Assembly (NCBI GenBank): GCA_030835385.1
Contig: JAURPI010000040.1
Span: forward strand, 142,735 to 191,624
Length of the DNA: 48,890 nucleotides
Direction of reading: 5' to 3'
Source: Alphaproteobacteria bacterium
GTDB lineage: Bacteria > Pseudomonadota > Alphaproteobacteria > Rhodospirillales > Rhodospirillaceae
Shown here one piece after another: positions 11,077-25,563 of the stretch. Below the pieces are notes generated by a model. It saw only the letters and a program-made list of their open reading frames with translations, was not told where the DNA came from and did no database searches. The position numbers and the translations under genes were made by a program. Every line of letters starts with the position of its first letter. Position 1 is the first letter of the stretch.

Positions 11077-11131
11077 CGTGCGCTCCCTGAATTCGTGTGT
11101 TGAGGATGTGCGTATTTCATTGTTTCAACTG

Positions 11132-11935
11132 TCATGGCATGAAACCACCGCCATTAATGTGAATGACCTGCCCTGTGATGAACCGTGCTGCATGGCCACT
11201 GAGAAAAAGAATGGGGGCCACAACATCATCGGCAACGGCGAGACGTTTCAGAGGTGTTGCATCAGCGTAGCGCACAGGATCGATATGAGTTGGGTTGCTG
11301 TCGTCTTCTCCGGTTCGGCTGGTGCCACCCCTTAGGAATGCGGTATCTACCGCGCCTGGGGCGATCACATTTACGCGAATATCCGGTGCGTTTTCATTAG
11401 CCAGTGACTTCGACAAAGCAATAACTCCGGCTTTGGCGGCACCATATGGCGATGTTCCAGGCAGACCTTTGTATGCAAGGCCAGACGCTGTATTGATGAT
11501 CGCTCCGTTACCTGATTTTTTTAGCAGTGGTAATGCGGCGCGGGCGCACAAAAATGCTGAGCGAAGATTACCGTCGGTGATCTCATCCCATGTCTCAGTG
11601 GTCATCTCTGCAACAGGTTCAAATTCGTTGGTGAACCCGCAAAGATTTACCATGGCATCAAGGTTGCCCCAGGATTGATCAATCACATCAAAGGCCGCTG
11701 CCACTGACTCTTCGTCTGTCGCATCAACAGCATGCTGCAGGCACGTGTTTGGCGGTGCATGCCGCTGGAGGGACGAGGTCAAGTCCAGCACAGCAACTTT
11801 CAATCCAATTTCAACGCTGGCGTTGACGAGCGCGCGTCCGATGCCACCACATCCACCCACGATTGCTATGCGTGCGCCTTTAGGCGGTCCAAGACGCGTA
11901 AAATCAAGGTCTGTTATAGCGGTGGCATCCATCAT
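11132..11935 (-). CDS. SDR-family oxidoreductase
   Basis: A 267-residue SDR with a short N-terminal extension before the Rossmann strand. The cofactor motif is VGGCGGIGRA, the active-site Ser is in NTASGLAYKG, the Tyr/Lys pair in YGAAK, and the C-terminal segment GQVIHINGGGFMP is typical of FabG-like members. It follows the zinc-ribbon gene by one base, so translation is probably coupled. A Met pair at 11935/11932 offers two adjacent starts. It is presumably a dehydrogenase of the same catabolic route as the second SDR of the operon; the two differ clearly, so they probably act on different steps. Confidence 0.87.
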   Translation of the reverse strand: MMDATAITDLDFTRLGPPKGARIAIVGGCGGIGRALVNASVEIGLKVAVLDLTSSLQRHAPPNTCLQHAVDATDEESVAAAFDVIDQSWGNLDAMVNLCGFTNEFEPVAEMTTETWDEITDGNLRSAFLCARAALPLLKKSGNGAIINTASGLAYKGLPGTSPYGAAKAGVIALSKSLANENAPDIRVNVIAPGAVDTAFLRGGTSRTGEDDSNPTHIDPVRYADATPLKRLAVADDVVAPILFLSGHAARFITGQVIHINGGGFMP

Positions 11936-11936
11936 C

Positions 11937-12152
11937 TTAACCTGACGTTACCAGTCGTTTTGCCGCGTCTTGCGTGAATTCATGATGACAACCGGGGCAA
12001 TGCATTTTGACATCGGGTCTATCCAAAAGACCGGGACCAACATGAAACCAATCGTCGCAATTCGGACACTGGGTCCACGACGTATTGCCTGTTTTTTCCC
12101 ATGACGCGCCGAGCCGAACGTTCTCGCGATTGTTTTGAGATGACTCAGTCAT
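11937..12152 (-). CDS. Small zinc-ribbon protein coupled to UbiD
   Basis: A 71-residue protein with two paired-cysteine knuckles, CPNC and CPGC, about 22 residues apart, around a WFHVGPGLLDRP segment; four Cys fit one structural zinc. The ATG at 12152 overlaps the UbiD stop as ATGA, favouring this start over a Met four codons upstream. Hydroxyarylic-acid decarboxylases of the UbiD family sometimes come with a small extra subunit (the D subunit of VdcBCD/BsdBCD systems). This protein does not look like those, but the position invites the same idea: an accessory or electron-transfer subunit for the decarboxylase (inference). I do not recognise the family. Confidence 0.7.
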   Translation of the reverse strand: MTESSQNNRENVRLGASWEKTGNTSWTQCPNCDDWFHVGPGLLDRPDVKMHCPGCHHEFTQDAAKRLVTSG

Positions 12153-13561
12153 AGCGTTGGCCAATCCGACATATCGGTTCCCGCAAGAAGTTTCGCCGCG
12201 CGCTCCATCGCTTCATTTGGCACTTTTGAGCGAGGTGGAACTGGAGGCGGTGCACCAGGTCTCCCAGGCAAAGGTAGACTGGCATCAATGCCCATCTTGG
12301 AAAGGGTCTTCGAACCCGCCGGTGTCGACGGATCGAGCAACGATCCTGAAAGACCATCGACTGTGAAACTGTCACGGCTCCACTGCACGCGAGTTGCTAA
12401 GGCAAACATCAATTCAGAATCGTCGAAAAGGTCGATGTCATGATCAACAGCGATGGCCATTTTCAATCGCCTGTAGGAGAGGGCTGCCATCAGCGCGTCG
12501 CGCACTTCTCCAGGTCCTGGGTTCTCGACCTGAATATAACCGTGGAAACGTCGCCCCTGGGCCGGAACGTGGACGTTGGTTACGCTTGGGGCGACCTGTT
12601 TGCAAAGGCCATAAACCTTGCCTTCCATCGCCATGTTGTCAGGGACCAACATGTCCGTCAGACCGGACCCGTAGTCATGATAAAGCGCGCCTTTGCGCAT
12701 GGTGATGCACGAAACATCTACTACCGGCGCAGCCACTTGAGGTCCCGAATACCCCGTGTACTCACCGAAGGGACCGTCTGCTTCTAACACATCGCGCGGA
12801 GCATACCCTTCAATAACAATTTCAGCGTCGGCCGGGACCATAATGGCATCACCAAACGTGCGACTTGGGGTCACGCGCAACGGTTCACCCAGCAGCCCCC
12901 CGCAGGCGCCCCAGTGGCTTTCTGGATAATTCAGCTTGGCTTGGGTGCCCATAAGCACGGCTGGGTGATGACCAATCCAAAACACCACAGGGCAGTCTTC
13001 GCCCTTGGCCCAAAACTGTCTCATGTTGCGATTGTTGTGGGACGCCGGATACGGAAAATACGACATGCGTTTTTCTGACTTTATCCAGCAGCGTTGTATC
13101 GCTGTATTGTCAGTCTGCGTTTCTGGATCATAGGTGGTCGCGTGCGCGGCGGTCAGATAGGGACCTGGATCTGTGACATGCTGGGTTAAGGCGGGTAAGC
13201 GTGTGAGATCAACATCATCGCCCTCAATGACGATCTCCTGAACCGGTGACGTATTTCCATCGATAATCTCAGGGGCAATATGGCTGCCCGTGCGTTGTGC
13301 ATATATCGGGGCAGCAGTTTGATGATCATTGATGCCCAGGGATCTCGCAACGATGGCTCTGCTGGCGGTCAGATTTGTGACCACAGGAATATCGCTGGTC
13401 CCGCCGTCAGCCATTGTTGGTTTGTCTACGACGAGGATAGGGCGACGACCCGTCTTCTCGAGGGCATATTGAAGAGCTGTGATCTCATGGGTGAGTGATA
13501 GAGAATCGTCTGGTCTAAAGACCGAAGCCTTCTCTGATTCCAAGAATGTTCTCAAATCCAA
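12149..13561 (-). CDS. UbiD-family (prenyl-FMN dependent) decarboxylase
   Basis: About 470 residues, full length for the family. UbiD enzymes use prenylated FMN to (de)carboxylate aromatic or alpha,beta-unsaturated acids. Seen here: N-terminal DLRTFLE, the QRCWIKSEKRM segment carrying a conserved Arg, and the GPFGEYTGYSGP motif with the catalytic Glu. NESHWG-like YPESHWGACGGL and AVDHDIDLFDD follow the family pattern. No ATG precedes the conserved start. The TTG at 13561 with AAGGGGG about 11 nt upstream is chosen; a TTG at 13618 would lie upstream of the putative operator. It heads the leftward operon and is divergent from its likely cofactor supplier at 13788. The substrate is unknown. Confidence 0.85.
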   Translation of the reverse strand: MDLRTFLESEKASVFRPDDSLSLTHEITALQYALEKTGRRPILVVDKPTMADGGTSDIPVVTNLTASRAIVARSLGINDHQTAAPIYAQRTGSHIAPEIIDGNTSPVQEIVIEGDDVDLTRLPALTQHVTDPGPYLTAAHATTYDPETQTDNTAIQRCWIKSEKRMSYFPYPASHNNRNMRQFWAKGEDCPVVFWIGHHPAVLMGTQAKLNYPESHWGACGGLLGEPLRVTPSRTFGDAIMVPADAEIVIEGYAPRDVLEADGPFGEYTGYSGPQVAAPVVDVSCITMRKGALYHDYGSGLTDMLVPDNMAMEGKVYGLCKQVAPSVTNVHVPAQGRRFHGYIQVENPGPGEVRDALMAALSYRRLKMAIAVDHDIDLFDDSELMFALATRVQWSRDSFTVDGLSGSLLDPSTPAGSKTLSKMGIDASLPLPGRPGAPPPVPPRSKVPNEAMERAAKLLAGTDMSDWPTL

Positions 13562-13592
13562 AATGACGCCCGCCCCCTTGTGTTGCCAAAAG

Positions 13593-13614
13593 GTATAAAA
13601 GTATGACTTTATAC
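13593..13614. promoter_or_regulatory. 22-bp dyad, candidate GntR operator
   Basis: The sequence GTATAAAAGT-ATG-ACTTTATAC is a nearly perfect inverted repeat: arms GTATAAA(A)GT and ACTTTATAC differ by a single extra A. It lies just upstream of the UbiD start and within the divergent UbiD/UbiX intergenic region. Half-sites beginning GT and ending AC, with this overall length, suit GntR/HutC-type dimers. The operon encodes one such regulator (7269-8039). The assignment is inference; the dyad itself is directly visible. Confidence 0.55.
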
Positions 13615-13730
13615 TCAAGAGGATTCTTTTGGCGCCTTTAACAATAGCAAATACAATGGCTTAGCGGTTCGCAGCGGACATGTTTACCCTGCGTCTGTGC
13701 GGGGTTCAGAAATCCTTTACGGACTATGGT

Positions 13731-13778
13731 TTAGGGTCCAGCCCACAAGAAAGGTTAGGGTCCAGCCCACAAGATAGG
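13731..13778. repeat. Two tandem 24-bp repeats upstream of the UbiX-like gene
   Basis: Units 13731-13754 and 13755-13778 match at 23 of 24 positions; each begins TTAGGGTCCAGCCCAC. The second unit ends in TAGG, 9 nt before the ATG at 13788, so the duplication copies the region around the ribosome binding site. It may be a recent slippage duplication or a repeated protein/RNA binding site. Confidence 0.85.
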
Positions 13779-13787
13779 AATGTAGGA

Positions 13788-14414
13788 ATGACACAGAAGA
13801 ACCGGCTTATTGTCGGCATCAGCGGCGCTTCCGGAATCATCTATGGAATACGTCTTCTGGATGTCTTGAGGGAAACGCCGTTTGAGACCCATTTGGTGAT
13901 GTCTCAATCGGCGGAAGTAACCCTGGCGCACGAGTCTAAGCTCAAGGTCGCAGACGTGAAATCCCGTGCCGATGTGGTCTATACAAATGGAGATATCGGC
14001 GCCGCAATTTCGTCTGGGTCCTTTGCCACCGCTGGCATGGTCATAGCGCCCTGTTCAATTCGATCAGCATCGGAAATCGCGACCGGTGTGACGTCGACAC
14101 TCCTGACGCGAGCTGCTGATGTTGTACTTAAAGAGAGACGTCGCCTTGTTCTCATGGTTCGTGAAAGCCCGCTGCATACGGGGCACCTCCGCACGCTAAC
14201 CCATCTATCTGAAATCGGAGCTGTAATTTCTCCTCCCGTACCGGCTTTTTACTCAAATCCTGATTCCGTTGACGATATCGTGAAACACACCGTTGGCCGA
14301 GTGCTCGATATGTTCGACATTGATGCCGGGCTCGTAAGGCGATGGGGAGAGCTGGGCGGCTCTGGTAAAACAGCGAAGCGAGCCACGACTAAACAGGAAT
14401 TCAAAACAAAATGA
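13788..14414 (+). CDS. UbiX-like flavin prenyltransferase
   Basis: A 208-residue flavoprotein of the UbiX/Pad1 family, which prenylates FMN with dimethylallyl phosphate to make the cofactor used by UbiD enzymes. Seen: VGISGASGIIYGIRLLDVL (FMN-binding loop) at the N-terminus, MSQSAEVTL, APCSIRSASEIATG and the family motif RRRLVLMVRESPLHTGHL near residue 120, followed by SPPVPAFYSNP. The ATG at 13788 follows AGGA in the second tandem repeat; the open frame extends upstream but without family similarity. It is divergent from the UbiD gene and overlaps the next gene by 4 bp (ATGA). A C-terminal basic tail (KTAKRATTKQEFKTK) exceeds the family core. It probably serves the neighbouring UbiD and may also serve ubiquinone synthesis. 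Confidence 0.9.
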   Translation: MTQKNRLIVGISGASGIIYGIRLLDVLRETPFETHLVMSQSAEVTLAHESKLKVADVKSRADVVYTNGDIGAAISSGSFATAGMVIAPCSIRSASEIATGVTSTLLTRAADVVLKERRRLVLMVRESPLHTGHLRTLTHLSEIGAVISPPVPAFYSNPDSVDDIVKHTVGRVLDMFDIDAGLVRRWGELGGSGKTAKRATTKQEFKTK

Positions 14415-14971
14415 ATGAGTCTGCGGGTAACGAAATCGCTAAAGGCAACCCGTTCTGGGAATTTGCGACCTGGGCCTATAGTCAGCCCGGCGTCGATAAA
14501 GCCATGTTGTCGCTGCAGAATCGCATGGGCGTTGATATCAACATGGTTTTGTTTTGTGTGTGGCTGGCCTACCGGGGGTCTAACGGCAACGACCTCGCGC
14601 AGCATTTGGCAAGTGCCTTGAAGATGTCCCGCGAGTGGCAACGTGATCTGGTAGAGCCGGTGCGAACGTGCCGCGAAAACCTCAAGGTTATTGTTGAAGG
14701 CCCTGACCTAATTGGCCGCAATCGCGAAGCGGCAACAGCACTTCGAGAAAGACTTAAAGCTAATGAGCTGGATCTAGAAGCGCTTCAAATCCTCGGTTTA
14801 TATGGTTTGGTCAGCACGGGGGATCACGACGAGGGTGCGCCAGTTGATATCGCAACTCAGAAAGAAGACGCGCAGAATAATCTGAACGTCTATTTTGCGG
14901 CTACAGGTGTGACTCTTGACCACCTTGCTCAAAGCCACGTCCTGCGCCTTTTAAACGGTGTCTTTCAGTAG
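14411..14971 (+). CDS. TIGR02444-family protein
   Basis: A 186-residue soluble, mostly helical protein. The N-terminal segment NPFWEFATWAYSQPGVDKAM, then LLxLQNRMGVDINMVLFCVW and the REWQRDLVEPVR stretch, match a conserved proteobacterial family known as TIGR02444 (DUF2390), which has no established function. It is translationally coupled to the UbiX-like gene (ATGA overlap), so the two are probably made together. Whether it has a role in flavin prenylation is not known. A C-terminal part after residue 140 is less like the family core. It converges on the first exported SDR gene. Confidence 0.8.
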   Translation: MNESAGNEIAKGNPFWEFATWAYSQPGVDKAMLSLQNRMGVDINMVLFCVWLAYRGSNGNDLAQHLASALKMSREWQRDLVEPVRTCRENLKVIVEGPDLIGRNREAATALRERLKANELDLEALQILGLYGLVSTGDHDEGAPVDIATQKEDAQNNLNVYFAATGVTLDHLAQSHVLRLLNGVFQ

Positions 14972-14992: not shown

Positions 14993-15772
14993 TTACCAAG
15001 GAATTTCTTCTCCGTCCCATTCGAATGATGGCGTGGACCCATCGCGCGGGTAGTTCTCAATTTGTCTAATCATGCCGGCAACACGTTCCTTCGGGTCACC
15101 CAGCGGCATCCGGCCTCGGACCTCGGCCATAAAGTCCGTATCGGTTGCGCCCGGAGCGACAAGTCCGATTAGAATAGCGTTCTCAGTGACTTTCGGATGT
15201 TGGGCGAGGTTGCGCATCACCATATTCACCGCAGACTTGGATGCACGATAGTAAAATAGCCCTGGGCGATTCACAGACCCAATCGACCCTTGGCTCGACG
15301 TCACGGTGAAGATCATTTTGCTTTCACTGGCCGCGACGTGATCTAGAAACGCCTCTGAAATCTTCAGAGGTCCGGCGACATTGATATCCATAACGCCTTG
15401 AAAGGTTGAATAGTCCAGCTTACCGAATTGCTGTATCGCTGAGCCTCCGCCCGAAATACCAGCGTTGTGGACAATGAGGTCAATCGGAACGCCTTCTAGG
15501 TTCTTAGCTAACGCGTCTATGCCGGTATGGTCTTTGACGTCCAGTGTTTCTATGCGAACCAGGTCAGGATATTGGGCTTTTAATGACGCCAAACTCTCTG
15601 GAATATTTGTGCGCCTGTGTGTGGCAAATACCATCCAGCCTTTGTCTGCATATTGACGGGCAAATTCAAGACCGATCCCACGGTTAGCACCGGTCACCAT
15701 AACGGTGGCGGCTTCCGCCATTGAACCAATAACTAAGAAGATAAGGCCTGCGTAGCCGATCAATCGATTCAT
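14993..15772 (-). CDS. Exported SDR, array member 1
   Basis: A 259-residue SDR with a Sec-type signal peptide: MNR, a hydrophobic core (LIGYAGLIFLVIG) and an AEA|A cleavage site immediately before the first Rossmann strand (TVMVTGANRGIG). The cofactor glycines, HNAG and the active-site YRASK are intact, and the protein ends with EEIPW, the C-terminal Trp signature shared by the array. The ATG at 15772 has AAGGAT 9 nt upstream. The nearest characterised relatives I can name are C-factor/CsgA-type and sniffer-type SDRs. Substrate and periplasmic cofactor source are unknown. It is the last gene of the leftward array. Confidence 0.85.
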   Translation of the reverse strand: MNRLIGYAGLIFLVIGSMAEAATVMVTGANRGIGLEFARQYADKGWMVFATHRRTNIPESLASLKAQYPDLVRIETLDVKDHTGIDALAKNLEGVPIDLIVHNAGISGGGSAIQQFGKLDYSTFQGVMDINVAGPLKISEAFLDHVAASESKMIFTVTSSQGSIGSVNRPGLFYYRASKSAVNMVMRNLAQHPKVTENAILIGLVAPGATDTDFMAEVRGRMPLGDPKERVAGMIRQIENYPRDGSTPSFEWDGEEIPW

Positions 15773-15793
15773 GGCTTTGATCCTTAATTGCAA

Positions 15794-16570
15794 CTACCAG
15801 GGGATGGCTTGGCCATCATAGTTTATCGGTAGCCCCACAGTTTCAGCGTTGACGCTGTCAATGACATTCAAGAGACCAGCGACGCTCTCATCAACCGTGA
15901 TTGAGCCCGGTCCTCGAAATCCTGATGCAAACAGAAGTTCTGTTTGAACTTGGCCAGGGGCGATGAGGCCAATGACATAGCCTTGACCCTTGAGGTCGGC
16001 GTGCATGGCCCGCATGGCCATGTTCACGGCTGCTTTTGACATACGGTACCCATAAAACCGACCAAGTCGTTGCGTCAGAGTCATTGACCCCAAGCCTGAT
16101 GTCATCGTCAGAATTTTTTTCTGTTCACTGGCGCCCACATGACTAAGGAATGCTTTGGCCATTTTCATTGGGCCATACACATTGACATCCATGATGAATT
16201 TGATCTCGTCATAGTCGATGTTCTGGGCGTTCTGCTTGTCGATATCGCCAAGTATGCCGGCATTATTGAGTAAGACATCAATTGCGGTGCCGTTATATTT
16301 CTCGGCTAACGCTGCAATTTCACTGTCATCGGTAACGTCCAACTCGTCGACCGTCAGATTATCGTGCTTGGCGGCCAGAGCGTTCAGCTCTTCTGCTCGC
16401 CCAGGATTACGGGCGGTGGCAATAACGCGCCATCCTTTTTCTGCGTAAGATTCCGCCAGACCTAGTCCGATACCTCGATTTGACCCAGTTATAAGAATGG
16501 TTTCGGCGCTAACGATTGATGGCAACAAAACTGCCAATACGACTGTGATTGTGCGTATGAATTTATGCAT
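15794..16570 (-). CDS. Exported SDR, array member 2
   Basis: A 258-residue paralogue. Signal peptide MHKFIRTITVVLAVLLPS with VSA|E cleavage directly before TILITGSNRGIG. The catalytic motif YRMSK and the NNAG strand are intact; it ends QAIPW. The ATG at 16570 has AAAGGA 11 nt upstream; a longer frame to 16612 would bury the signal peptide behind 14 extra residues and is rejected. It lies 21 bp upstream of member 1. The mid-section (GLGSMTLTQRLGRFYG) differs from its neighbours, so substrate specificity probably differs. Confidence 0.85.
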   Translation of the reverse strand: MHKFIRTITVVLAVLLPSIVSAETILITGSNRGIGLGLAESYAEKGWRVIATARNPGRAEELNALAAKHDNLTVDELDVTDDSEIAALAEKYNGTAIDVLLNNAGILGDIDKQNAQNIDYDEIKFIMDVNVYGPMKMAKAFLSHVGASEQKKILTMTSGLGSMTLTQRLGRFYGYRMSKAAVNMAMRAMHADLKGQGYVIGLIAPGQVQTELLFASGFRGPGSITVDESVAGLLNVIDSVNAETVGLPINYDGQAIPW

Positions 16571-16605
16571 TAGGACGTGTCCTTTATTGAATGCCTTGTC
16601 ATTTA

Positions 16606-17385
16606 CTACCAAGGTACAATTTCACCGTTATGAAGAATGTATTGACCTGAATGTTCGACATTCAGGTTTTCTATATTGCGGATAACATCTGTTACGCTTT
16701 GTTCGGTGGTCATGCCCATGCCTCCATATCCGGCTTGCTGCAGCAAGCGTGTTTCAACGACACCAGGCGCCAGTATGCCTACAGACACGCCCTTGGGCGC
16801 GACTTCAAGGGATAGGGCCCTATACCCCATGTTAATGGCGGTTTTGGACATGCGATAAAGATACAGCGCTTTGTAAAACGGTGACGGTCGGACGTTCGTG
16901 AGTGAGGCTGTGCCAGACGTAATTACTGTTATCTTTTTCTGATCACTAGCTTCCACGTGGGGGAGAAACGCCTCCGCCATTTTCATCGGACCGATCGCAT
17001 TGGTCTTGTAGACCTGCGCCATCGAATCAAAGTCGATAGAACCGATGGTTTGGACATCAGGTTCTCCGCCAAGTATGCCAGCGTTATTGAGAAGAACATC
17101 TATAGAGGTGCCCGAAAGCTTTGCCGCTAAGCTGTCGATCTGTGCATGATCACTGACATCAAGCGATTCAACGCGCAGATTGCTGTATTTAGATGCTAGT
17201 GCTTGAAGGTCATCGTCGTCTTCTGGTGTTCGGCTGGTTGCTATGACATCCCAGCCCAGTGCTGCGTACTGGCGTGCAAACTCCAGTCCGATGCCGCGGT
17301 TTGATCCCGTAATGAGCACGGTCGCGGCGTTGGCCGACGTTGCAGCAAGTGCCGCGAATGCCGCAATAACGATAGTGAGGCGCAT
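16606..17385 (-). CDS. Exported SDR, array member 3
   Basis: A 259-residue paralogue. Signal peptide MRLTIVIAAFAALAATS with ANA|A cleavage just before TVLITGSNRGIG. NNAG and YRMSK are intact; C-terminus EIVPW. The ATG at 17385 has a weak AGGGACA about 8 nt upstream. A roughly 110-bp gap upstream leads to the broken membrane-protein gene that interrupts the array, so a promoter could lie here. It carries a longer loop before the Tyr (RPSPFYKALYLYRMSK) than the other members. Confidence 0.85.
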   Translation of the reverse strand: MRLTIVIAAFAALAATSANAATVLITGSNRGIGLEFARQYAALGWDVIATSRTPEDDDDLQALASKYSNLRVESLDVSDHAQIDSLAAKLSGTSIDVLLNNAGILGGEPDVQTIGSIDFDSMAQVYKTNAIGPMKMAEAFLPHVEASDQKKITVITSGTASLTNVRPSPFYKALYLYRMSKTAINMGYRALSLEVAPKGVSVGILAPGVVETRLLQQAGYGGMGMTTEQSVTDVIRNIENLNVEHSGQYILHNGEIVPW

Positions 17386-17494
17386 GATTATGTCCCTTGG
17401 TCGGATTGTTCATTAGCGGCGATCATAGCGCCGGTTTAATGCTTGCAGACTCCGCCAAACGCTATGTCCGCAGGGCGGAGCCATCCATCGCTTA

Positions 17495-17872
17495 TTATTG
17501 AGAGGCTTTGGGAGATAGAAACCAAAGTACTGCGGCTACCAACAAAAGTGCCGGCACATCTCCAACTACATGGCCTGTTTCATGCTCATCCATAACTGCT
17601 TGGATGGCCATGATTCCCGCATGTACGACGCTTGACCAAATCTTGAACGAGATAAGGCTGCGGTGGTCAGCCGGGTTTTTTGCTGCTCAAATGAGAAAAA
17701 TGCCCGGTACCGCGTAAACACCGCAGATCATATGAAGGTAATATTGTCCGTCACCTCCGTGCCAAACTCATCCTGACGGCCACGCGATGCCAATTGGGTA
17801 AACCAACAAAAATATAACGCCAAATGCGATCATGGCTTTGCTAAGAAAATTGGTTTTTGTAGTTTCGTCCAT
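17495..17872 (-). pseudogene. Small membrane protein (DUF6632-like) with two in-frame TGA codons
   Basis: The minus strand carries a 126-codon frame with a good ribosome binding site (GGGGGAG, about 8 nt before the ATG at 17872) and a natural TAA end. It is interrupted only by TGA at codon 35 (17768-17770) and codon 62 (17687-17689). Conceptual translation gives a protein with four membrane segments: AMIAFGVIFLLVYPIGIAWP, MICGVYAVPGIFLI, WSSVVHAGIMAIQAV and GDVPALLLVAAVLWFL. The pattern (ICGVYAVPG, AAKNPADHRSLISF, WSSVVHAGIMA) fits what I remember of DUF6632. Both TGA positions lie where Trp would fit, and TGG to TGA is one transition each. There is no frameshift, so inactivation looks recent or the stops are read through. 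Confidence 0.7.
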
Positions 17873-17908
17873 AAGTCAGTCTCCCCCAAAATTGAATAGC
17901 GCGCTAAA

Positions 17909-18673
17909 TTACCACGTCATTTCTTCGCCCGTGTTGGCGAAGTATTTGCCAGACATCTCAAGATCGTACTTCTCAATCATTGCCATAGATCGGGAGACGC
18001 TGGTTTCTACGTCGATCATCATTTGTTTTGGCAAGCCGGCAGTGAAATCCGTATCAACAAATCCTGGCGTCAGTATTCCGATGATGATCCCTTGCTCTTG
18101 GACTAATGGATGAATGGACACGTTTTTCATCACCATATTCAAGGCTGACTTGCTCGCCCGGTAAAAGGGTTGACGGGCACCCCGCACAAGGGACAAGCGG
18201 CCTTCAGAGGACGAAATGTTGATTATCTTTTTCTGATCACTGGCGCCGACGTGTTCGAGAAAAGCCTCTGTTACCTTTAATGGTCCCAACACATTGATGT
18301 TCATGACATCATTGAACACAGAAAAATCGATATTACCGAACTCTTGCGTATTCCGGCCTCCTGATATACCGGCGTTATTGATGAGCACGTCAATTGCCGT
18401 ACCACTCAACTTGTCTGCAAGCGCATCAACACCGGTGTGGTCGGTCACATCGAGCGTTTCGATGCGAATATTGCTGTTATCTGCGGCAAGTGCCTGGAGT
18501 TTCTCATCGTCTTCAGGTGATCTTGCGGTTGCGATGACATCCCAGCCTTGTTCTGCATATCGCTTGGTAAATTCTAGCCCTATCCCTCGGCTCGCGCCCG
18601 TGATCATCACTGTGGCGGCTTCAGCTGTGCTCCAGAATAGAATGGCCGTAAAAAGTGTGACAGTACGCAGCAT
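17909..18673 (-). CDS. Exported SDR, array member 4
   Basis: A 254-residue paralogue. Signal peptide MLRTVTLFTAILFWS with AEA|A cleavage just before TVMITGASRGIG. NNAG and YRASK are intact; C-terminus EEMTW. Two Met codons two residues apart (18679, 18673) are possible starts; AAGGA is 8 nt before the second and only 2 nt before the first, so 18673 is preferred. The gene lies about 30 bp downstream of member 5 and upstream of the two-TGA gene, in the same orientation. Its catalytic region (FYRASKSALNMVMKN) is closest to member 1, including the AEA|A cleavage site. Confidence 0.85.
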   Translation of the reverse strand: MLRTVTLFTAILFWSTAEAATVMITGASRGIGLEFTKRYAEQGWDVIATARSPEDDEKLQALAADNSNIRIETLDVTDHTGVDALADKLSGTAIDVLINNAGISGGRNTQEFGNIDFSVFNDVMNINVLGPLKVTEAFLEHVGASDQKKIINISSSEGRLSLVRGARQPFYRASKSALNMVMKNVSIHPLVQEQGIIIGILTPGFVDTDFTAGLPKQMMIDVETSVSRSMAMIEKYDLEMSGKYFANTGEEMTW

Positions 18674-18703
18674 TTTCATTTTCCTTCTAACAGATGGCAA
18701 ACC

Positions 18704-19477
18704 TTACCAAGGAATCTCTTTGCCGTCATAGTTGAGGAAACGACCAGATGTTTCCAAACTTAATGCGTCTATCAGCGGTATCATGCCGGATACGCTTTGA
18801 GTGGCCGTGATTGTTGGCAAGTCTCGATAGTCAAAGTTTTCTGCCTTTTCCGCCTCTTCTAAGGGGAGTCCAAATGTTTGCCGTAGCATTCGGGTTTCGA
18901 CCAGCCCAGGCATAAAAACAACCACGGCAATACCTTTGTCTTCTAGCCGTTTTCCAATTCCACGCATGACCATGTTTAAAGCCGCCTTACTGGCGGCGTA
19001 AAAGGGCGTGCTAGGTGATTTGCTGACAGAAGAGATGGACCCTAAAAAGCTAGTGATCGAGACTATTTTTTTGTCGAGCCCTTTGTAGAGATGAGGCGTG
19101 AACGCTTCGCTCACTTTCATCGGACCGATTACATTGACGTCCATAATTTCGTGAAACAGAGCAGGGTCTAGTGATCCCCAACTCTGACGGTCCAGGTCGC
19201 CGTATTGCCCTGCGTTGTTGATCACAACGTCAACGGCTGTGTTGTCATATTTGCTCGCGAGGGCGCCGATTTGACTGACGTTCGTAACATCGAGTGGCTC
19301 AACGGTAATTTTTGAATCTGATGCGGCAAGATCCTGCAAGTCTTGCGCTTTCTTCGTATCTCTACAGCCAGCGATAACAGTCCAACCCCTGGCCGCGTAT
19401 TGAGTGACGAACTCTAATCCGACGCCGCGGTTCGCCCCAGTGACTAGAACTGTTCTTTGTTCATCGGCTGTTACCAT
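18704..19477 (-). CDS. SDR array member 5, no signal peptide
   Basis: A 257-residue paralogue whose N-terminus is the short charged MVTADEQRTVLVTG, without a signal peptide, so it should remain cytoplasmic. NNAG and YAASK are intact; C-terminus KEIPW. Its ATG lies inside the last codons of member 6 (CCATGGTAA), so it depends on translational coupling. It shares with member 6 a unique insert before the C-terminus (GLPLEEAEKAENFDYRDLP versus GLTQEEAEAATDYDYKRFK), showing that this pair duplicated most recently. The signal peptide was probably lost at the duplication junction (inference). Confidence 0.85.
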   Translation of the reverse strand: MVTADEQRTVLVTGANRGVGLEFVTQYAARGWTVIAGCRDTKKAQDLQDLAASDSKITVEPLDVTNVSQIGALASKYDNTAVDVVINNAGQYGDLDRQSWGSLDPALFHEIMDVNVIGPMKVSEAFTPHLYKGLDKKIVSITSFLGSISSVSKSPSTPFYAASKAALNMVMRGIGKRLEDKGIAVVVFMPGLVETRMLRQTFGLPLEEAEKAENFDYRDLPTITATQSVSGMIPLIDALSLETSGRFLNYDGKEIPW

Positions 19478-20280
19478 GGAATTGTTTTGCCATCATAATT
19501 CAAGAAGTCACCGGAAAGATCGAGTGTTAGGGCGTCCAGCGTTGATATCATTTGTGAAACGCTCTCCTTCGTGGTGAGCGGCTTGAAGCGTTTGTAGTCA
19601 TAGTCCGTGGCTGCCTCTGCTTCTTCCTGAGTAAGGCCGACCGCTTCTCGCAGCATGCGGGTATCGACCGCACCGGGCATAAAAATAGCGACAGCTATCC
19701 CACGATCTTTAAGACGCATAGCGGTACCGCGCATTGCCATATTCACCGCAGCCTTGCTAATGGCGTAATAGGGTGCGCCGGGTGGATTGCGAATTGATGC
19801 TAATGACCCGGCCGTGCTTGAAATGACGGCAATTTTTTTGGTTTCACTCGCGGCAATGTGGTCAGCGAAGGCCTCAGAAATTTTCAATGGACCAAAGACG
19901 TTGATATCCATGACTTGGCGAAAGAGATCGCGGTCCAATGTCCCCCAAGTCTGACGAGGTCTATCGCCAAACACACCGGCGTTGTTCATCAATACGTCTA
20001 TTGCTGTGCCACGATATTTGTCAGCCAGCGCGGCAATTTCCTCTAGATCTGCGACGTCGAGCTTTTCGATGGTGATGCTTTCGTTCGCAGTCGCCAGTGC
20101 CTGCAAATCTGCGTCGTCTTCGGGAGAGCGGCTGGTGGCGATGACGTTCCAACCCAGGTCTGCATATTGCTTGACGAACTCTAGGCCAAGGCCCCGATTA
20201 GACCCTGTGACCAGAACTGTTTCAGCTGCGGCACCGTGCGACCAACACAAGGCCAGCGACAATACTAGAATTCTAAACAT
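19471..20280 (-). CDS. Exported SDR, array member 6
   Basis: A 269-residue paralogue. Signal peptide MFRILVLSLALCWSHG with AAA|E cleavage directly before TVLVTGSNRGLG. NNAG and YAISK are intact; C-terminus KTIPW. The ATG at 20280 has AAAGGAT about 10 nt upstream; the open frame to 20379 is discarded because its extra 33 residues overlap the upstream gene's end. It carries the acidic insert shared only with member 5. The gap to member 7 is about 30 bp. Confidence 0.85.
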   Translation of the reverse strand: MFRILVLSLALCWSHGAAAETVLVTGSNRGLGLEFVKQYADLGWNVIATSRSPEDDADLQALATANESITIEKLDVADLEEIAALADKYRGTAIDVLMNNAGVFGDRPRQTWGTLDRDLFRQVMDINVFGPLKISEAFADHIAASETKKIAVISSTAGSLASIRNPPGAPYYAISKAAVNMAMRGTAMRLKDRGIAVAIFMPGAVDTRMLREAVGLTQEEAEAATDYDYKRFKPLTTKESVSQMISTLDALTLDLSGDFLNYDGKTIPW

Positions 20281-20311
20281 CAAAGATGATCCTTTGCATT
20301 CATCAATAGAT

Positions 20312-21064
20312 TTACCAAGCCATCGGCTCACCTGTGTACTGCATAAACGTGCCTGAAGTTGCTTGCGTATACCAACCAATCACGTCGCGGACACCAGTGG
20401 CGCTTTCTCGTACCGACACCTTAGGAATATCGAATGGTGCAGACATATCCGTATCAACGACGCCAGGATGGATCATACCAATAACGAGACCGCCGCTTGC
20501 TGTGTCTTTGGCAAAGTTGCGCATCATCATGTTCAAAGCTGTCTTGCTGGCGCGATAGAAATAAATATTGCCGCCTGTCAGTGTGATTGAGCCGACAATG
20601 CTGGAGATGTTCATTATCTTTTTGGTCTGGCTCAAGGCCACGTGTTCAATGAAAGCATCCGCGATTTTGAGCGGGCCCAGGGTATTGGTTTCGAACAGCT
20701 GATGAGCGATTGAGAAATCAAGATTGCCTAGTCTTTGGATGTTGGGGTCACCCAAAACGCCGGCATTATTGATTAAGACATCGATTGGTGTTCCACGCAG
20801 TTGAGTGGCAAGGGCATCGATCTGGGCGTGGTCTGTCACGTCAAGAGCTTCAATGCGCACCGTCTCGTATTTGGCGGCGAGATTTTGAAGTGCCTCATCA
20901 TCTGCCGGAGACCGCGCTGTCGCGATAACGATCCAGCCATCTGCCGCGTATTGGGTAGCCAGTTCCAGTCCCAGGCCGCGATTAGAACCGGTAATGAGGA
21001 CCGTTTCCGCACGGATTGGCAAAGATGCTAAAGCCAGCAAAGCTATGATTGCCCATATTTTCAT
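20312..21064 (-). CDS. Exported SDR, array member 7 (first of the array)
   Basis: A 250-residue paralogue. Signal peptide MKIWAIIALLALASLP with IRA|E cleavage directly before TVLITGSNRGLG. NNAG and YRASK are intact; C-terminus EPMAW. The ATG at 21064 has a weak GAGAGA 4-5 nt upstream. It is the promoter-proximal gene of the leftward array and diverges from the solute-binding lipoprotein gene at 21167, leaving about 100 bp for both promoters. The divergence suggests co-regulation of uptake and SDR genes (inference). Confidence 0.85.
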   Translation of the reverse strand: MKIWAIIALLALASLPIRAETVLITGSNRGLGLELATQYAADGWIVIATARSPADDEALQNLAAKYETVRIEALDVTDHAQIDALATQLRGTPIDVLINNAGVLGDPNIQRLGNLDFSIAHQLFETNTLGPLKIADAFIEHVALSQTKKIMNISSIVGSITLTGGNIYFYRASKTALNMMMRNFAKDTASGGLVIGMIHPGVVDTDMSAPFDIPKVSVRESATGVRDVIGWYTQATSGTFMQYTGEPMAW

Positions 21065-21166
21065 GGCGTCTCTCTGAGGGGTTTTGAAAAGAGAAAGATG
21101 GTATGGCGCCCGCTGAAGCAAGGGAAGGGGCTTGCCTTTCCGGCGCTGATGCCAATGCTAGGTGTC

Positions 21167-22744
21167 ATGAGAGGTGTAACAACTCGTTTCCACTTTATAG
21201 CCGTCGTTTGCGCCGGGCTTTTTCTGAGTGCCTGTGGTGAAGATGGAGGAGGGACTGACCCAAATACGTCAGCATCAGACACCTTGCGCGTTGGCGTGAT
21301 GGGGCTTCCGGCGATGCTTGGGAACCCCTATGCCTCCCTTAACGCGCCCACGATATTCACTTGGTCCGCGGTTTTCGACAGTCTGACCTATGTAGGAAAT
21401 GACGGGTTAGTTCAGCCTTGGTTAGCCACGTCATGGGAAGCGACCAGTCCGACAACGTGGGTCTTCAAGCTGCGAGAAGGGGTAACTTTCTCTAACGGTG
21501 AGCCGTTCAATGCCGAAGCTGTGGTCAACGCTGTTGAATACTTGATCAGCCCGGACGCCCTCACTGAAGTCGTTGCTCAGATGCTGAGTTCCATGACTGG
21601 CGCGCGCGCTCTGGATGAGCATACGGTTGAAATTACGATGTCCGCGCCAAACGTGCTGTTTCCTCGAGAGGCCGCCAGTCTTCGGATCGTAGCTCCAGAA
21701 CATTGGCGCAGACTAGGGCGAGAAGGGTTTGCCCAAGAGCCGCACGGAACTGGTCCGTTCCGGGTCACCGCGTGGGAACCAGCTGTGGTGCGCATGGAAG
21801 CATTCGAAGAGTCCTGGAGACGTCCTCATTTTAAGAAGCTTGATATTTATGCCGTTCCAGAAGGGCCGCAGCGTATCCAGGGCGTGATCAGTGGCCGGTT
21901 AGATGTGGTGCTCGGAACGATTCCTGACCAGATGGCGGAGTTGGAGGCCGCAGGACATCAGTGGGTCAGTATTCCGGGTGGCGGCATTTATACGTTTTCG
22001 ATGATCTTAAACCCGGATCATCCGGCCTTCGGACCCGAAAATGAGCCACTCACAGACGTCCGGGTGCGGCGGGCCATTAACTATGCCATCGATCGGCAAG
22101 CCTATATCGAGCTACTGCTCAGCAACACGTCCCGTGCGCCGTCTCAGCCGGTGCCGTCAACTGTGTTCGGCTACAACCCCGATCTTGAGCCATATCCCTA
22201 TGATCCGGATCAGTCACGTGCGCTATTGGCAGAGGCGGGATATCCCGACGGGTTTGATCTGGTTTTTGAAATCGTCCCTGGGACGTCCATACCCAATGGG
22301 GTAGCTATCTATCAGAAAGTTGCGGAAGACCTCCGGGTCGTCGGCATAAACCTGGAACTCAAGACCTTTCCATTACCCCAGTATTTTAATGCTGTGCACA
22401 CCGGAGAATTCAAGGGGCAGGGGTTCATGATGGATTTCCCGGCGGCACCTCAACTCGATGCCTTGCGCGGCATGCGACTCCATAGCTGCCTATGGAAAAC
22501 GCCTTGGTTATGTGACGAAGGTGATCAAGCAATGATCTCTGCGGCATTAGCTGAGCCTGATTTGGAGCGCCGGAGGGCGTTAACCCAAGATATAATGCGC
22601 CGTTACCATGAGCAGGCCTACATGATTTATCTGTTTGAACGGGTCGATTACTACGGCGTAAGAGGTGGCTTAGAAGGCTTCGAAGCCGAGGGCTTATTCA
22701 TCCAATATGATAAGGTTCACGAAGCCGAAAAACGATTCAATTAG
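21167..22744 (+). CDS. ABC-type solute-binding lipoprotein (SBP_bac_5, oligopeptide/nickel type)
   Basis: About 525 residues. A lipoprotein signal (RFHFIAVVCAGLFLSAC, lipobox LSAC) precedes a family-5 solute-binding domain: DTLRVGVMGLPA, the typical WVFKLREGVTFSNGEPFNAE, HGTGPFRVTAWEP, DVRVRRAINYAIDRQAYIE and LLAEAGYPDGFDL. It would sit in the periplasm anchored to the inner membrane and present peptides or other amphiphilic ligands to an ABC permease. No permease or ATPase gene is adjacent. Several Met codons are possible starts (21098, 21155, 21167); 21167 gives the best signal peptide. It is divergent from the exported SDR array. Confidence 0.88.
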   Translation: MRGVTTRFHFIAVVCAGLFLSACGEDGGGTDPNTSASDTLRVGVMGLPAMLGNPYASLNAPTIFTWSAVFDSLTYVGNDGLVQPWLATSWEATSPTTWVFKLREGVTFSNGEPFNAEAVVNAVEYLISPDALTEVVAQMLSSMTGARALDEHTVEITMSAPNVLFPREAASLRIVAPEHWRRLGREGFAQEPHGTGPFRVTAWEPAVVRMEAFEESWRRPHFKKLDIYAVPEGPQRIQGVISGRLDVVLGTIPDQMAELEAAGHQWVSIPGGGIYTFSMILNPDHPAFGPENEPLTDVRVRRAINYAIDRQAYIELLLSNTSRAPSQPVPSTVFGYNPDLEPYPYDPDQSRALLAEAGYPDGFDLVFEIVPGTSIPNGVAIYQKVAEDLRVVGINLELKTFPLPQYFNAVHTGEFKGQGFMMDFPAAPQLDALRGMRLHSCLWKTPWLCDEGDQAMISAALAEPDLERRRALTQDIMRRYHEQAYMIYLFERVDYYGVRGGLEGFEAEGLFIQYDKVHEAEKRFN

Positions 22745-22795: not shown

Positions 22796-24391
22796 TTAGA
22801 GTCGACCTTCTTCAAATAATGCGTTGAAAAAGTCTTGTCGTTCTTTGCGAAAATCGCGACGAACAATAGGCTCCGTTTGACTAAAATCGAGCATCAAGTC
22901 GTTTTCGACCGATACCGCCGGCCAGCCGGGAAGACCACTCATATTTGGGTCTCCGGTTTTGGCGAATTGAACCCAATAGCGACTTAGCATCTTGGCGTAG
23001 TCTCTATCCGATTGATTTACCCGGTACCCGAAAACGCCAATATTTTTGGCATTGCCGATGATCGGAAAAGTATCCGTTGTGTCGAAAACGTAACGTGTTT
23101 CTACTCCATGGGCAGCACCATAGAAATCTCCCTGGTGTTCATCCAAGACCCTCGAGAAATGATAGACATACGTGGGGAGACCGACTTTGGCATGATGTTT
23201 GGCTAGATATCTTTGTGACCCGGAGAAAAAGTCGGTATAGAGCTTGTTGTTAAGAGTCTTGTCATCAATTTCGCCATAGATGGAATTGGCTTCTTCACGT
23301 GACAACCGCATCAGCCCTAGCACGGGGTCAGCGGAACTGGCCCAACCGAGAAGGCTTCCCTCCCAGCTGGTTGCACCCGTCATATAGGGTACAGGGTTTT
23401 GCTCGCCATCTACAAAAGTCGCTCCAACGGCCCTCACAACGATGCGGTTATCGACCACGGGATTCAAAGATCCTCCGACGCCGAGCATGTTGTTGCGCTG
23501 AAATTCGAGTATCTGATCGACCGCCAGGTCCCTAAGCGCAGAAACAACCGCCTCATTGTCGCCCTCAATTCCTAGCTTTTTGGCGATAGTTTGACCTTCA
23601 GTCTCTAACGAAGGCACCCCGGGTGTGTCTATTGAGATATGCCTAGGCAAGCTGACCCGTATGCCTGAGCTTTGCGATATTGCCTTGTGAAACAAGCCAG
23701 CGCTGACAGGACTGGCCATGTGGTAATTTACAGACACACCGCCGGCAGACATTCCAAATATAGTGACGTTATCCGGGTCCCCACCAAATGCCGCAATGTT
23801 GTCTTTCACCCATTCAAGAGCGGCAATCTGATCCATCATGTAGTAGTTGCCTCGTGGCTCGTTTTGTTGAGTAGAAGAGAGCGCGGGGTGGGCAAACTGC
23901 CCTAGCATGGCGAGCCGGTAATTGAAGGTAACGGCCACAACTCCTTGTTTTGCCAAGTTTGTTCCGTCATAGCGGGGCATTGACCCATCACCGACTTGAA
24001 AACCGCCGGGCAGTATCCAAACCATGACTGGAAGCTTGGATTTTGGTTTTGTGTCTGGCGTCCAAACATTAAGAAATAAGCAATCCTCATCCATCGGCAT
24101 GTCGCCAAGGACTTCCAAAGAATATCCGGCTGACAGAAGTTGAGGACACACCGCCCCATAGGAGCGGGCGTCCCGTGTGCCTCTCCATTTTTTAGGGGGT
24201 TGAGTCTGACGCCATCTCAACTCTCCAATGGGCGCGGCTGCGAATGGAATGCCTCGAAATTTGTGAACGTCATTCTCGACAAAACCCCGCAACTTGCCTT
24301 GGTTTATGTCAACGATGGATCGATCTTGGGCGTTGGCATTGGATCCAAAGACAATCAACAGCGCGCAACAGGCTGCAATTAGCTTTTTCAT
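22796..24391 (-). CDS. Exported type-B carboxylesterase
   Basis: A 531-residue carboxylesterase/lipase of the cholinesterase-like fold. Signal peptide MKKLIAACCALLIVFGSNANA, then FRGIPFAAAPIGELRWR, EDCLFLNVWTP, the oxyanion region WILPGGFQVGDGS, the nucleophile elbow FGMSAGG (Ser near residue 212) and the histidine region GAAHGVETRYVF. Most relatives have GESAGG; Met replaces Glu at the elbow. It should hydrolyse esters in the periplasm or outside. The start overlaps the stop of the TRAP-type binding protein gene by 4 bp (ATGA), so release of an acid by hydrolysis and its capture could be linked (inference). Confidence 0.9.
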   Translation of the reverse strand: MKKLIAACCALLIVFGSNANAQDRSIVDINQGKLRGFVENDVHKFRGIPFAAAPIGELRWRQTQPPKKWRGTRDARSYGAVCPQLLSAGYSLEVLGDMPMDEDCLFLNVWTPDTKPKSKLPVMVWILPGGFQVGDGSMPRYDGTNLAKQGVVAVTFNYRLAMLGQFAHPALSSTQQNEPRGNYYMMDQIAALEWVKDNIAAFGGDPDNVTIFGMSAGGVSVNYHMASPVSAGLFHKAISQSSGIRVSLPRHISIDTPGVPSLETEGQTIAKKLGIEGDNEAVVSALRDLAVDQILEFQRNNMLGVGGSLNPVVDNRIVVRAVGATFVDGEQNPVPYMTGATSWEGSLLGWASSADPVLGLMRLSREEANSIYGEIDDKTLNNKLYTDFFSGSQRYLAKHHAKVGLPTYVYHFSRVLDEHQGDFYGAAHGVETRYVFDTTDTFPIIGNAKNIGVFGYRVNQSDRDYAKMLSRYWVQFAKTGDPNMSGLPGWPAVSVENDLMLDFSQTEPIVRRDFRKERQDFFNALFEEGRL

Positions 24392-25401
24392 TGGGTGTTC
24401 TCCTGTTGCCGCGCGAAAGCAGCCTTTCCCTGAAGTATCAAATCGTAAAGACGGGCGCCTTCACTGCCGGTGTCGTCTAAAATCCGTTGCAGGCTATTGG
24501 CAGACGCATTTTTCCATCGCTCCCGCTGAGCTGGGGTCAGGTCCAAATAGGTGAGACCGGCGGCTTCACCTTCCTGGACAACCTCCTCTACATACGCTCG
24601 GACGTTTTTGCGCATGCTCTTCAAATCGACGTAAGCATCAATCAGTGCCGCCTTCTGAGCGTCGGTCGCCGACTCAAACCACCGGGCGTTGGCCATGTTG
24701 ACCCCCATTTCGTACATGCCTTTTAGACGAGAGACGCAGCAGACCTGGGAATTTAGAGCATTGTGCACCATCACCACGTTGGTCAGGCCACCCTGAACCA
24801 GCCCAGTCTGTAATCCAGGGATCAACTCGCCGAGTTCCAGAATCGCATAATCCGCGCCGACTGACTCCACGAAGGATTGGAGGATAATTGAAGGTGAAAT
24901 TCGCAGGGTCATGCCGTCGAGGTCTGCAGGTTCCAAGACCGGCTTGTCTACCGAGTATAAGACTCCCCAACCAACTTCCGTGAACTGAATGACTTGGAGT
25001 CCGAGTTCGCCAAACATTTTTGTGATCGGCTCAGACAGGTAATTATCCAGGACAAAGTCCGCCTCTTCGAGACTCTCGAATATGTAGGGCGCCAGAATCA
25101 CTCCCATTTCTGGAACCAATGACGTCATGCCTTGGGACGAAATACTGATGACCTGGATGCGGTTGCGCCGTGCGCCAGTTATGAGTTGCTGTTCTGAGCC
25201 AAGTTCGCCGAGCAGATACCATTCAAAGTCAAACTCAGGATTGGCTTCGATCTCTGTCTGGAACCCCATCCATTGGTCCCACCAGACGCTGTCGGGAAAT
25301 GAGTAGACGCCAACCTTACCCTTGAGTGGTTCGGCGAGGACCGGTCCAGCAAGGGTGATCAACACTAAGGCCAATAGGCAGCGGGCGACTTTCGTATACA
25401 T
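24388..25401 (-). CDS. TRAP-transporter DctP-type solute-binding protein
   Basis: About 337 residues. Signal peptide with hydrophobic core LLALVLITLAGPVLA cleaved before EPLKGK, then the DctP fold: GELGSEQQLITGARRNRIQV, APYIFESLEEADFVLD, the substrate-arginine region DLDGMTLRISPS, and GLVQGGLTN. DctP proteins bind carboxylates or other small ligands for TRAP permeases. No DctQ/DctM genes occur here, so it is an orphan or works with a distant permease. The ATG at 25401 is chosen for signal-peptide length; an upstream Met at 25458 would add 19 residues, and no ribosome binding site is clear. It is translationally coupled to the carboxylesterase. Confidence 0.85.
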   Translation of the reverse strand: MYTKVARCLLALVLITLAGPVLAEPLKGKVGVYSFPDSVWWDQWMGFQTEIEANPEFDFEWYLLGELGSEQQLITGARRNRIQVISISSQGMTSLVPEMGVILAPYIFESLEEADFVLDNYLSEPITKMFGELGLQVIQFTEVGWGVLYSVDKPVLEPADLDGMTLRISPSIILQSFVESVGADYAILELGELIPGLQTGLVQGGLTNVVMVHNALNSQVCCVSRLKGMYEMGVNMANARWFESATDAQKAALIDAYVDLKSMRKNVRAYVEEVVQEGEAAGLTYLDLTPAQRERWKNASANSLQRILDDTGSEGARLYDLILQGKAAFARQQENTQ

Positions 25402-25563
25402 AGCGTCGAGATTAGGGCGGCGTTTGGCGTGAGGCAACGTTTCAAGACGCTGCTGCATACAGGTGGATTGGTGTTTTGACTTATCTCGACGATAGCAGAT
25501 GATGTGGGTAATCAAGGGGGAGACGTGCGGATGAACCGCACAAGGCTGGGTAAGGAGAGCAAA

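Follow-up and report, generated by a model that had tools for sequence, protein, structure and literature searches.

NADP(H) chemistry is, to our knowledge, usually taken to be cytoplasmic, and the few exceptions exported by the twin-arginine translocation (Tat) pathway carry their cofactor along. The glucose-fructose oxidoreductase of Zymomonas mobilis, which belongs to the Gfo/Idh/MocA fold family, is a Tat-exported periplasmic NADP enzyme that runs a closed cycle with enzyme-held NADP(H). According to the title of Halbig 1999, as cited in PMC6708511, its twin-arginine export depends on cofactor binding. The passages of PMC4880591 that deal with the Myxococcus C-factor CsgA place this protein, which resembles a short-chain dehydrogenase (SDR), in the cell envelope and describe its proteolytic maturation by PopC and no Sec or Tat signal, and a title cited in that article calls Sniffer, together with CsgA, a cardiolipin phospholipase. 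Here we analysed a window, that is, a whole stretch of 48,890 nucleotides from an Alphaproteobacteria bacterium of the Rhodospirillaceae (assembly GCA_030835385.1, contig JAURPI010000040.1), in which seven SDR genes lie in tandem, head to tail, on the minus strand (14993-21064) and six of them carry a predicted signal peptide. On balance, the sequences favor the view that these six are catalytically competent carbonyl reductases or alcohol dehydrogenases of the NADP(H) type that work in the periplasm and keep their cofactor in a closed cycle, and that the remaining protein, P0005, is their signal-less sister.

The array proteins have the fold, NADP motifs and catalytic residues in common with Sniffer, chicken-liver CBR and bacterial NADP carbonyl reductases (1sny, 3wxb, 5tqv, 5idw, 5wqo; patulin-detoxifying SDR 7xwh). 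In these entries the match starts at chain residues 6-28, and their descriptions speak of carbonyl reductases or SDRs and in no case of export. The array proteins are like CsgA, by description only, in being SDRs with a predicted place in the envelope, and differ from it by their signals. Among the best-ranked open-licence literature matches for periplasmic, exported or secreted SDRs and for periplasmic NADP(H), no title dealt with exported bacterial SDRs, which does not prove absence; two of the matches were papers on the fungus Trichoderma. In two other papers SDRs were named only within protein tables, and the main text of a Pseudomonas Tat-substrate paper contained neither "short-chain" nor "SDR" nor "NADP".

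From the first array gene onwards, the six SDRs with signals are P0007 (20312-21064; signal MKIWAIIALLALASLPIRA, mature from ETVLITG), P0006 (19471-20280; MFRILVLSLALCWSHGAAA), P0004 (17909-18679; MKMLRTVTLFTAILFWSTAEA), P0003 (16606-17385; MRLTIVIAAFAALAATSANA), P0002 (15794-16570; MHKFIRTITVVLAVLLPSIVSA) and P0001 (14993-15772; MNRLIGYAGLIFLVIGSMAEA). P0005 (18704-19477), whose start overlaps the stop of P0006, the two genes sharing 7 bases, begins with MVTADEQRTVLVTG, and the frame upstream of it is closed 6 codons before its start. The six signals are 19-22 residues long and have, by rule and by eye, the anatomy of Sec signals cut by signal peptidase I, with a basic n-region, a hydrophobic h-region and a c-region ending in an AxA-type site at the domain junction. 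None of the six contains a twin arginine, so that the window members do not class as Tat precursors. In all six, exactly one residue (A or E) stands between the AxA-type cut and the beta-1 strand T-V/I-L/M-I/V-T-G. An AAGG(A)-type ribosome site precedes five of the six signal-bearing starts, P0007 having only a weak one. In the predicted structure of P0004, with a mean predicted local distance difference test score (pLDDT) of 94.1, beta-1 runs from residue 23, two residues past the predicted cut at 21, and the signal is modelled at low confidence (56 and 72 for its 10-residue blocks). The cytosolic paralogue P0008 (25564-26283, plus strand) starts M-P-TVLITG; with Met removed, it begins in the alignment at the residue that opens the mature exported copies. 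Gene callers may trim such signals, since the mature domain and a cytosolic SDR would start at the same place. These results uphold what a sequence-only reading of this DNA had claimed, namely that six of the seven tandem SDRs carry Sec-type signals cut just before the first strand; its further claim that P0008 starts at that same position is exact after Met removal and off by one if Met is counted, and its range of 15737-21064 took in the rest of the array but stopped short within P0001, of which it covered the start and not the remainder down to 14993.

The signals were assessed with a fixed, self-written n/h/c rule applied to N-termini. It was passed by 62 of 163 distinct homologues, in 46 of which the distance from the last AxA-type site to the TG motif is exactly five residues. 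None of the 68 homologues with a clear cytosolic start has an upstream frame that passes, and the rule was passed by 1023 of 27899 internal start codons (3.7%) and by 1857 of 12400 shufflings of the residues of true signals (15%). The other SDRs of the window's own genome, which has 52 PF13561 matches overall, served as a further control; 32 of 35 loci were covered, anchored on match coordinates and omitting one family member and two poor matches, and a single one of the 32, P0009, passed. Chance hydrophobic upstream frames were rejected as the source of the signals on the basis of the 0 of 68 cytosolic homologues and the 1 of 32 other SDRs. P0009 (G000:C6:29995-30876; L246, L250) is a second exported SDR with the twin-arginine signal MKRRDVLNGLAAAMA; like the array members it is an SDR with an export signal, and it differs from them by this Tat signal and by its SDR subfamily (PRK08264-like, below the cut-off). 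It was matched in 9 of 31 genomes, its own included (12 matches), and the twin arginine is present in 9 of 11 N-termini, again including its own.

In agreement with a cleavable signal, the evolutionary rate shifts at the predicted cut. The ratio of nonsynonymous to synonymous substitution rates (dN/dS), calculated for genes with a start of equal length (seven of seven in G005, four of seven in G002 and three of seven in G003), was 0.24 for the pooled signals of the window's genome and G005 (122 codons, six of them from the signal-less P0005) and 0.063 for the mature parts (1644 codons), an approximately four-fold difference, with mature values ranging from 0.04 to 0.10. Against G002, the signals of the four of seven genes compared are 29-56% identical at equal length, and the mature parts 82-93%.

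The history of export was followed in trees obtained by quick searches, in which branch support comes solely from the Shimodaira-Hasegawa-like approximate likelihood ratio test (SH-aLRT); one survey for relatives kept the best 80 of at least 555 confirmed, and a further SDR frame of L195 (2715-3522) stands outside the classification. A tree of 162 mature domains contains a clade of 67 rows (SH-aLRT 97), 58 of which pass the n/h/c rule. Three of the nine non-passing rows are P0005 and its G005 and G009 orthologues; two of the other six look like Tat precursors, three fail the charge rule, and L105 (open reading frame 519-1449) has an ambiguous start. Since P0005 is nested inside the exported clade, its lack of a signal is a secondary loss and, by its place in the tree, the one clear reversal within a nearly all-exported clade. 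Judged in the same way, export of these SDRs is old. The cytosolic group of P0008 branches just outside the clade, and beyond it L043 with L072, and L069, bear signals of their own. For the second tree, built on 210 rows, inspection by eye changed the labels of thirteen (seven to Sec, three of them with an ambiguous twin arginine, three to cytosolic and three left unassigned), L151 with its lipobox was placed among the Tat rows, and L056 was labelled Sec although it is probably cytosolic. This tree requires 5 changes between exported and cytosolic states, 4 of them forced by starred branches, and one of the 5 is probably due to the mislabelled L056.

The cysteine content of the mature domains differs with the predicted compartment, with means of 0.22 in 87 Sec rows, 0.43 in 21 Tat rows and 2.41 in 99 cytosolic rows, kinship being ignored; such contrasts are inflated because the rows are related. 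A Cys just ahead of the NADP-type Arg is common in cytosolic rows (78 of 99) and much rarer in Sec (11 of 87) and Tat rows (2 of 21), and the signal-less P0005 has it, like most cytosolic members. All seven P0006 orthologues have zero cysteines, and the P0005 orthologues have 1, 2 and 3. The low cysteine content would be an independent trace of the exported compartment and supports export. Signal anatomy, a fast-evolving signal on a slowly evolving domain, the exported clade, the Tat and Sec relatives and the cysteine depletion thus agree, and it is very likely from these sequence features that the six array proteins are exported.

The sequence-only reading did not extend to the fact that relatives use Tat, nor to the reversal of P0005 inside the exported clade. 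Twin-arginine signals occur in relatives at the very same junction, as in MTDTPTITRRDTVVGGIAIAAAASAG (L103), MSEQATRNSTTRRTVLQGAAALALASG (L177) and MITTSFTRRFFVSAFMALGILTAPAVAQ (L160), and Tat signals were found in 21 of 210 distinct homologues, with three ambiguous cases set aside. The h-region is less hydrophobic in Tat than in Sec signals (2.07 versus 2.87; Mann-Whitney p 6e-10, ignoring kinship), and on the 210-row tree Tat versus the rest requires 11 changes, 7 of them forced by starred branches. The locus formed by UbiD, UbiX, DUF2390 and the SDR array holds Sec members in the window's genome, G001, G002, G003, G005, G006 and G009, with 5-8 SDRs each and P0005-type copies lacking a Sec signal. 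The same locus holds Tat members in G011, G777 (where UbiD lies beyond the stretch examined), G778, G780 and G827, where it contains one to three SDRs. It is also present in G779, where the SDR frame ends at the contig edge before its start, and G004, of the window's genus and 83% complete, has single homologues, the array not being found there. TatC is present in the window's own genome and in eight of nine genomes tested.

Two further N-termini were observed among the homologues. L151 (minus strand, open reading frame 390-1329) combines a twin arginine with a lipobox-like LAAC and is a possible lipoprotein SDR. The SDR at L034:5899-6726 begins with ELKRREVIRVAIAYLLVAGVL, which suggests a fused anchor and which we take to resemble the membrane anchor of another protein family.

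As to spread, 23 of the 73 genomes from the same family have matches at E 1e-55 or better. At 1e-48, and counting the window's own genome, there are matches in 6 of the 385 class genomes and 2 of the 398 phylum genomes, with at most six candidates scored per genome in these two surveys. The class and phylum matches comprise exported members in the window's own genome, G232, G324 and G401, and cytosolic starts in G266, G336 and G736. Within the window's family, L017 and L187 (G807) have the same exported N-termini.

The residues expected of an NADP(H)-dependent SDR are preserved in the exported members. T27, G28, G32, G34, R53, N102, N129, Y173 and K177 are kept in all 108 rows labelled exported, and S157 in 105 of them. 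NADP(H)-type SDRs are recognized by an Arg after beta-2 and a basic residue in the glycine motif; the latter, R31, is found in 102 of the 108 rows, so that on sequence the exported SDRs class as NADP(H)-type. TGxxxGxG, NNAG and the N-S-Y-K residues are invariant across the eight window SDRs, save for HNAG in P0001. The two window SDRs run against PF00106 (adh_short), P0004 and P0008, scored 129 and 114.9 bits (cut-off 26.6), and the top-scoring NCBIfam models for all eight were PRK08177 and PRK06953, with best scores of 119.7-176.5 bits, all below the curated cut-offs of 251-254 (P0007 highest, 176.5 versus 251). The closest structural matches are to NADP(H) carbonyl reductases (Foldseek E 6e-20 to 6e-17, 26-34% identity). 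When the mature segments are compared across the seven paralogues, the substrate loop (entropy 1.86) and the loop before the Tyr (1.80) are the most variable, and the glycine motif (0.49) and YxxxK (0.58) the least. With a kept active site and variable loops, these proteins look like active enzymes with split specificity, and a catalytic role is likely on this basis.

Taking these data as a whole, the precursors would be made with cleavable Sec-type signal peptides and the mature SDRs released in the periplasm, where they may act on small hydroxy and carbonyl compounds, with specificity divided among the paralogues through the variable loops. NADP(H) would stay on the enzyme in a closed cycle, one substrate reducing it and another re-oxidizing it, as in glucose-fructose oxidoreductase; in the relatives, Tat would carry the cofactor-loaded enzyme across, and the Sec forms of the window would bind NADP after export. 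The Tat relatives would fit that precedent, which differs from the window members by its Tat signal and by its fold family; the only profiles that match P0004 at E 1e-5 are adh_short, adh_short_C2, KR and Epimerase, with Gfo/Idh/MocA not among them.

Several points weigh against such an enzyme cycle or against export itself. The closed-cycle idea draws on the relatives and on analogy. Window signals lack a twin arginine, and therefore the proteins should cross unfolded and free of cofactor, so that the Sec members must either acquire cofactor once exported or have another role. Catalytic Ser is replaced by Ala in L011 and L039 and by Thr in L056, itself probably cytosolic. An independent-pairs test of the cysteine contrast comprised 4-5 pairs only and had no power (median p 0.5), and the exported homologues beyond the clade, L043, L072 and L069, keep 2, 2 and 1 cysteines. 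TatC was not found in G324 (83% complete), though two Tat-like SDRs are present there. With regard to the earlier suggestions, export itself is strongly supported, and bound cofactor is the best supported of three, through the near-invariant NADP and catalytic residues and the Tat signals of relatives, but this support does not reach the Sec forms.

The alternative that survives best is that the exported catalytic SDRs use free periplasmic NADP(H), supplied by leakage, lysis or porin diffusion, with no need of cofactor retention. Unfolded, cofactor-free export by Sec together with almost invariant cofactor residues would be explained in this way, and Sec rows outnumber Tat rows by 87 to 21 in a sample weighted to the window's relatives; however, the recurrent Tat signals would then be unneeded, and a phrase search on periplasmic NADP(H) in open-licence literature was without match, so that we regard this alternative as rather unlikely. 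It is improbable that the SDR fold has been reused as a phospholipase or contact signal, with cofactor-independent lipid hydrolysis or surface signalling in the manner of CsgA. Such a role would remove the cofactor problem, the broad SDR type is the same, and Sniffer (1sny) is matched at E 2.9e-55 by a profile built from 52 family members, but an NADP-type Arg and motif glycines present in all exported-labelled rows go beyond a lipase's need, and the cardiolipin activity of the related HSD10 is judged, in the passage of PMC9587951 devoted to it, a slow side reaction of doubtful relevance. A lipid or signalling role, as had been proposed earlier, found no specific support, and a non-catalytic signal is disfavored by the conserved active site. 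Even less credit is due to exported non-catalytic ligand-binding proteins, a role to which the adjoining solute-binding proteins and the two exported rows without the catalytic Ser would point, since Tyr and Lys are universal and Ser nearly so in the exported-labelled rows and the mature domains are under the strong constraint given by their dN/dS. It is very improbable that the domain works in the cytoplasm, either behind an uncleaved hydrophobic anchor or from a true start further in. An in-frame ATG, GTG or TTG does lie at most 14 codons from the TG motif in six of the seven array genes (not P0005), but in the window those internal starts are without a recognized ribosome site and the ones 1-3 residues before TG would delete beta-1; the basic n-region and the neutral or acidic mature start place the domain outside, and the AxA site in six of six, the variants with a Tat signal or lipobox at this junction and the cysteine depletion add to this. 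Among homologues, three internal starts 2-3 residues before TG have a 4-base ribosome-site match. Dual localization via internal starts was considered separately and is not supported, as no recognized ribosome site occurs at useful window positions.

The gaps between the array genes, from P0007 to P0001, are 31, -7, 24, 523, 35 and 21 bases, and from this spacing the seven genes probably form one or two operons. Between P0004 and P0003, positions 17386-17908 hold a broken gene for a small hydrophobic protein, of which intact 125-residue copies are found there in L127 and L128. On one side of the array lie genes for a UbiD-family decarboxylase (12149-13618, minus strand; Pfam PF01977 and synteny), a UbiX-like flavoprotein (13680-14414, plus strand; PF02441, Flavoprotein, the name UbiX being our interpretation) and a DUF2390 protein (14411-14971, plus strand; PF09523 and synteny). 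The region 9556-13618 encodes an aldehyde dehydrogenase, another SDR and UbiD, which adjoin the array in several relatives, hinting that they form one catabolic unit with it. On the other side are a family-5 solute-binding protein (21098-22744, plus strand; PF00496 and synteny), a carboxylesterase (22796-24391, minus strand) with, by eye, the signal-like N-terminus MKKLIAACCALLIVFGSNANAQ, and, between array and P0008, a DctP-type solute-binding protein (24388-25515, minus strand; PF03480). The two solute-binding proteins belong to different transporter families and are found beside the array in six related genomes as well, and P0008 also adjoins it in six other genomes; the carboxylesterase is at the matching place in one of six array loci compared in other genomes (L126). 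No permease was found among the ten window proteins run against Pfam, and an Rfam search of the window gave no match. The UbiD, UbiX-like, aldehyde dehydrogenase and solute-binding neighbors suggest that small organic compounds are taken up and broken down.

The array thus points to an ordinary reductase family exported as a stable lineage, with cofactor and active sites intact, by two routes that differ in whether the cofactor is carried along. More tentatively, an NADP(H) SDR lineage may have moved whole into the periplasm and grown there into arrays of up to eight paralogues of divided specificity, with free switching between Sec and Tat. As the Sec members arrive without cofactor, a usable periplasmic supply of NADP(H) would then have to exist, and comparison of Sec and Tat members of the same locus would separate such a supply from enzyme-bound retention. 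If this lineage-wide reading is true, pyridine-nucleotide redox chemistry would run outside the inner membrane in these bacteria.

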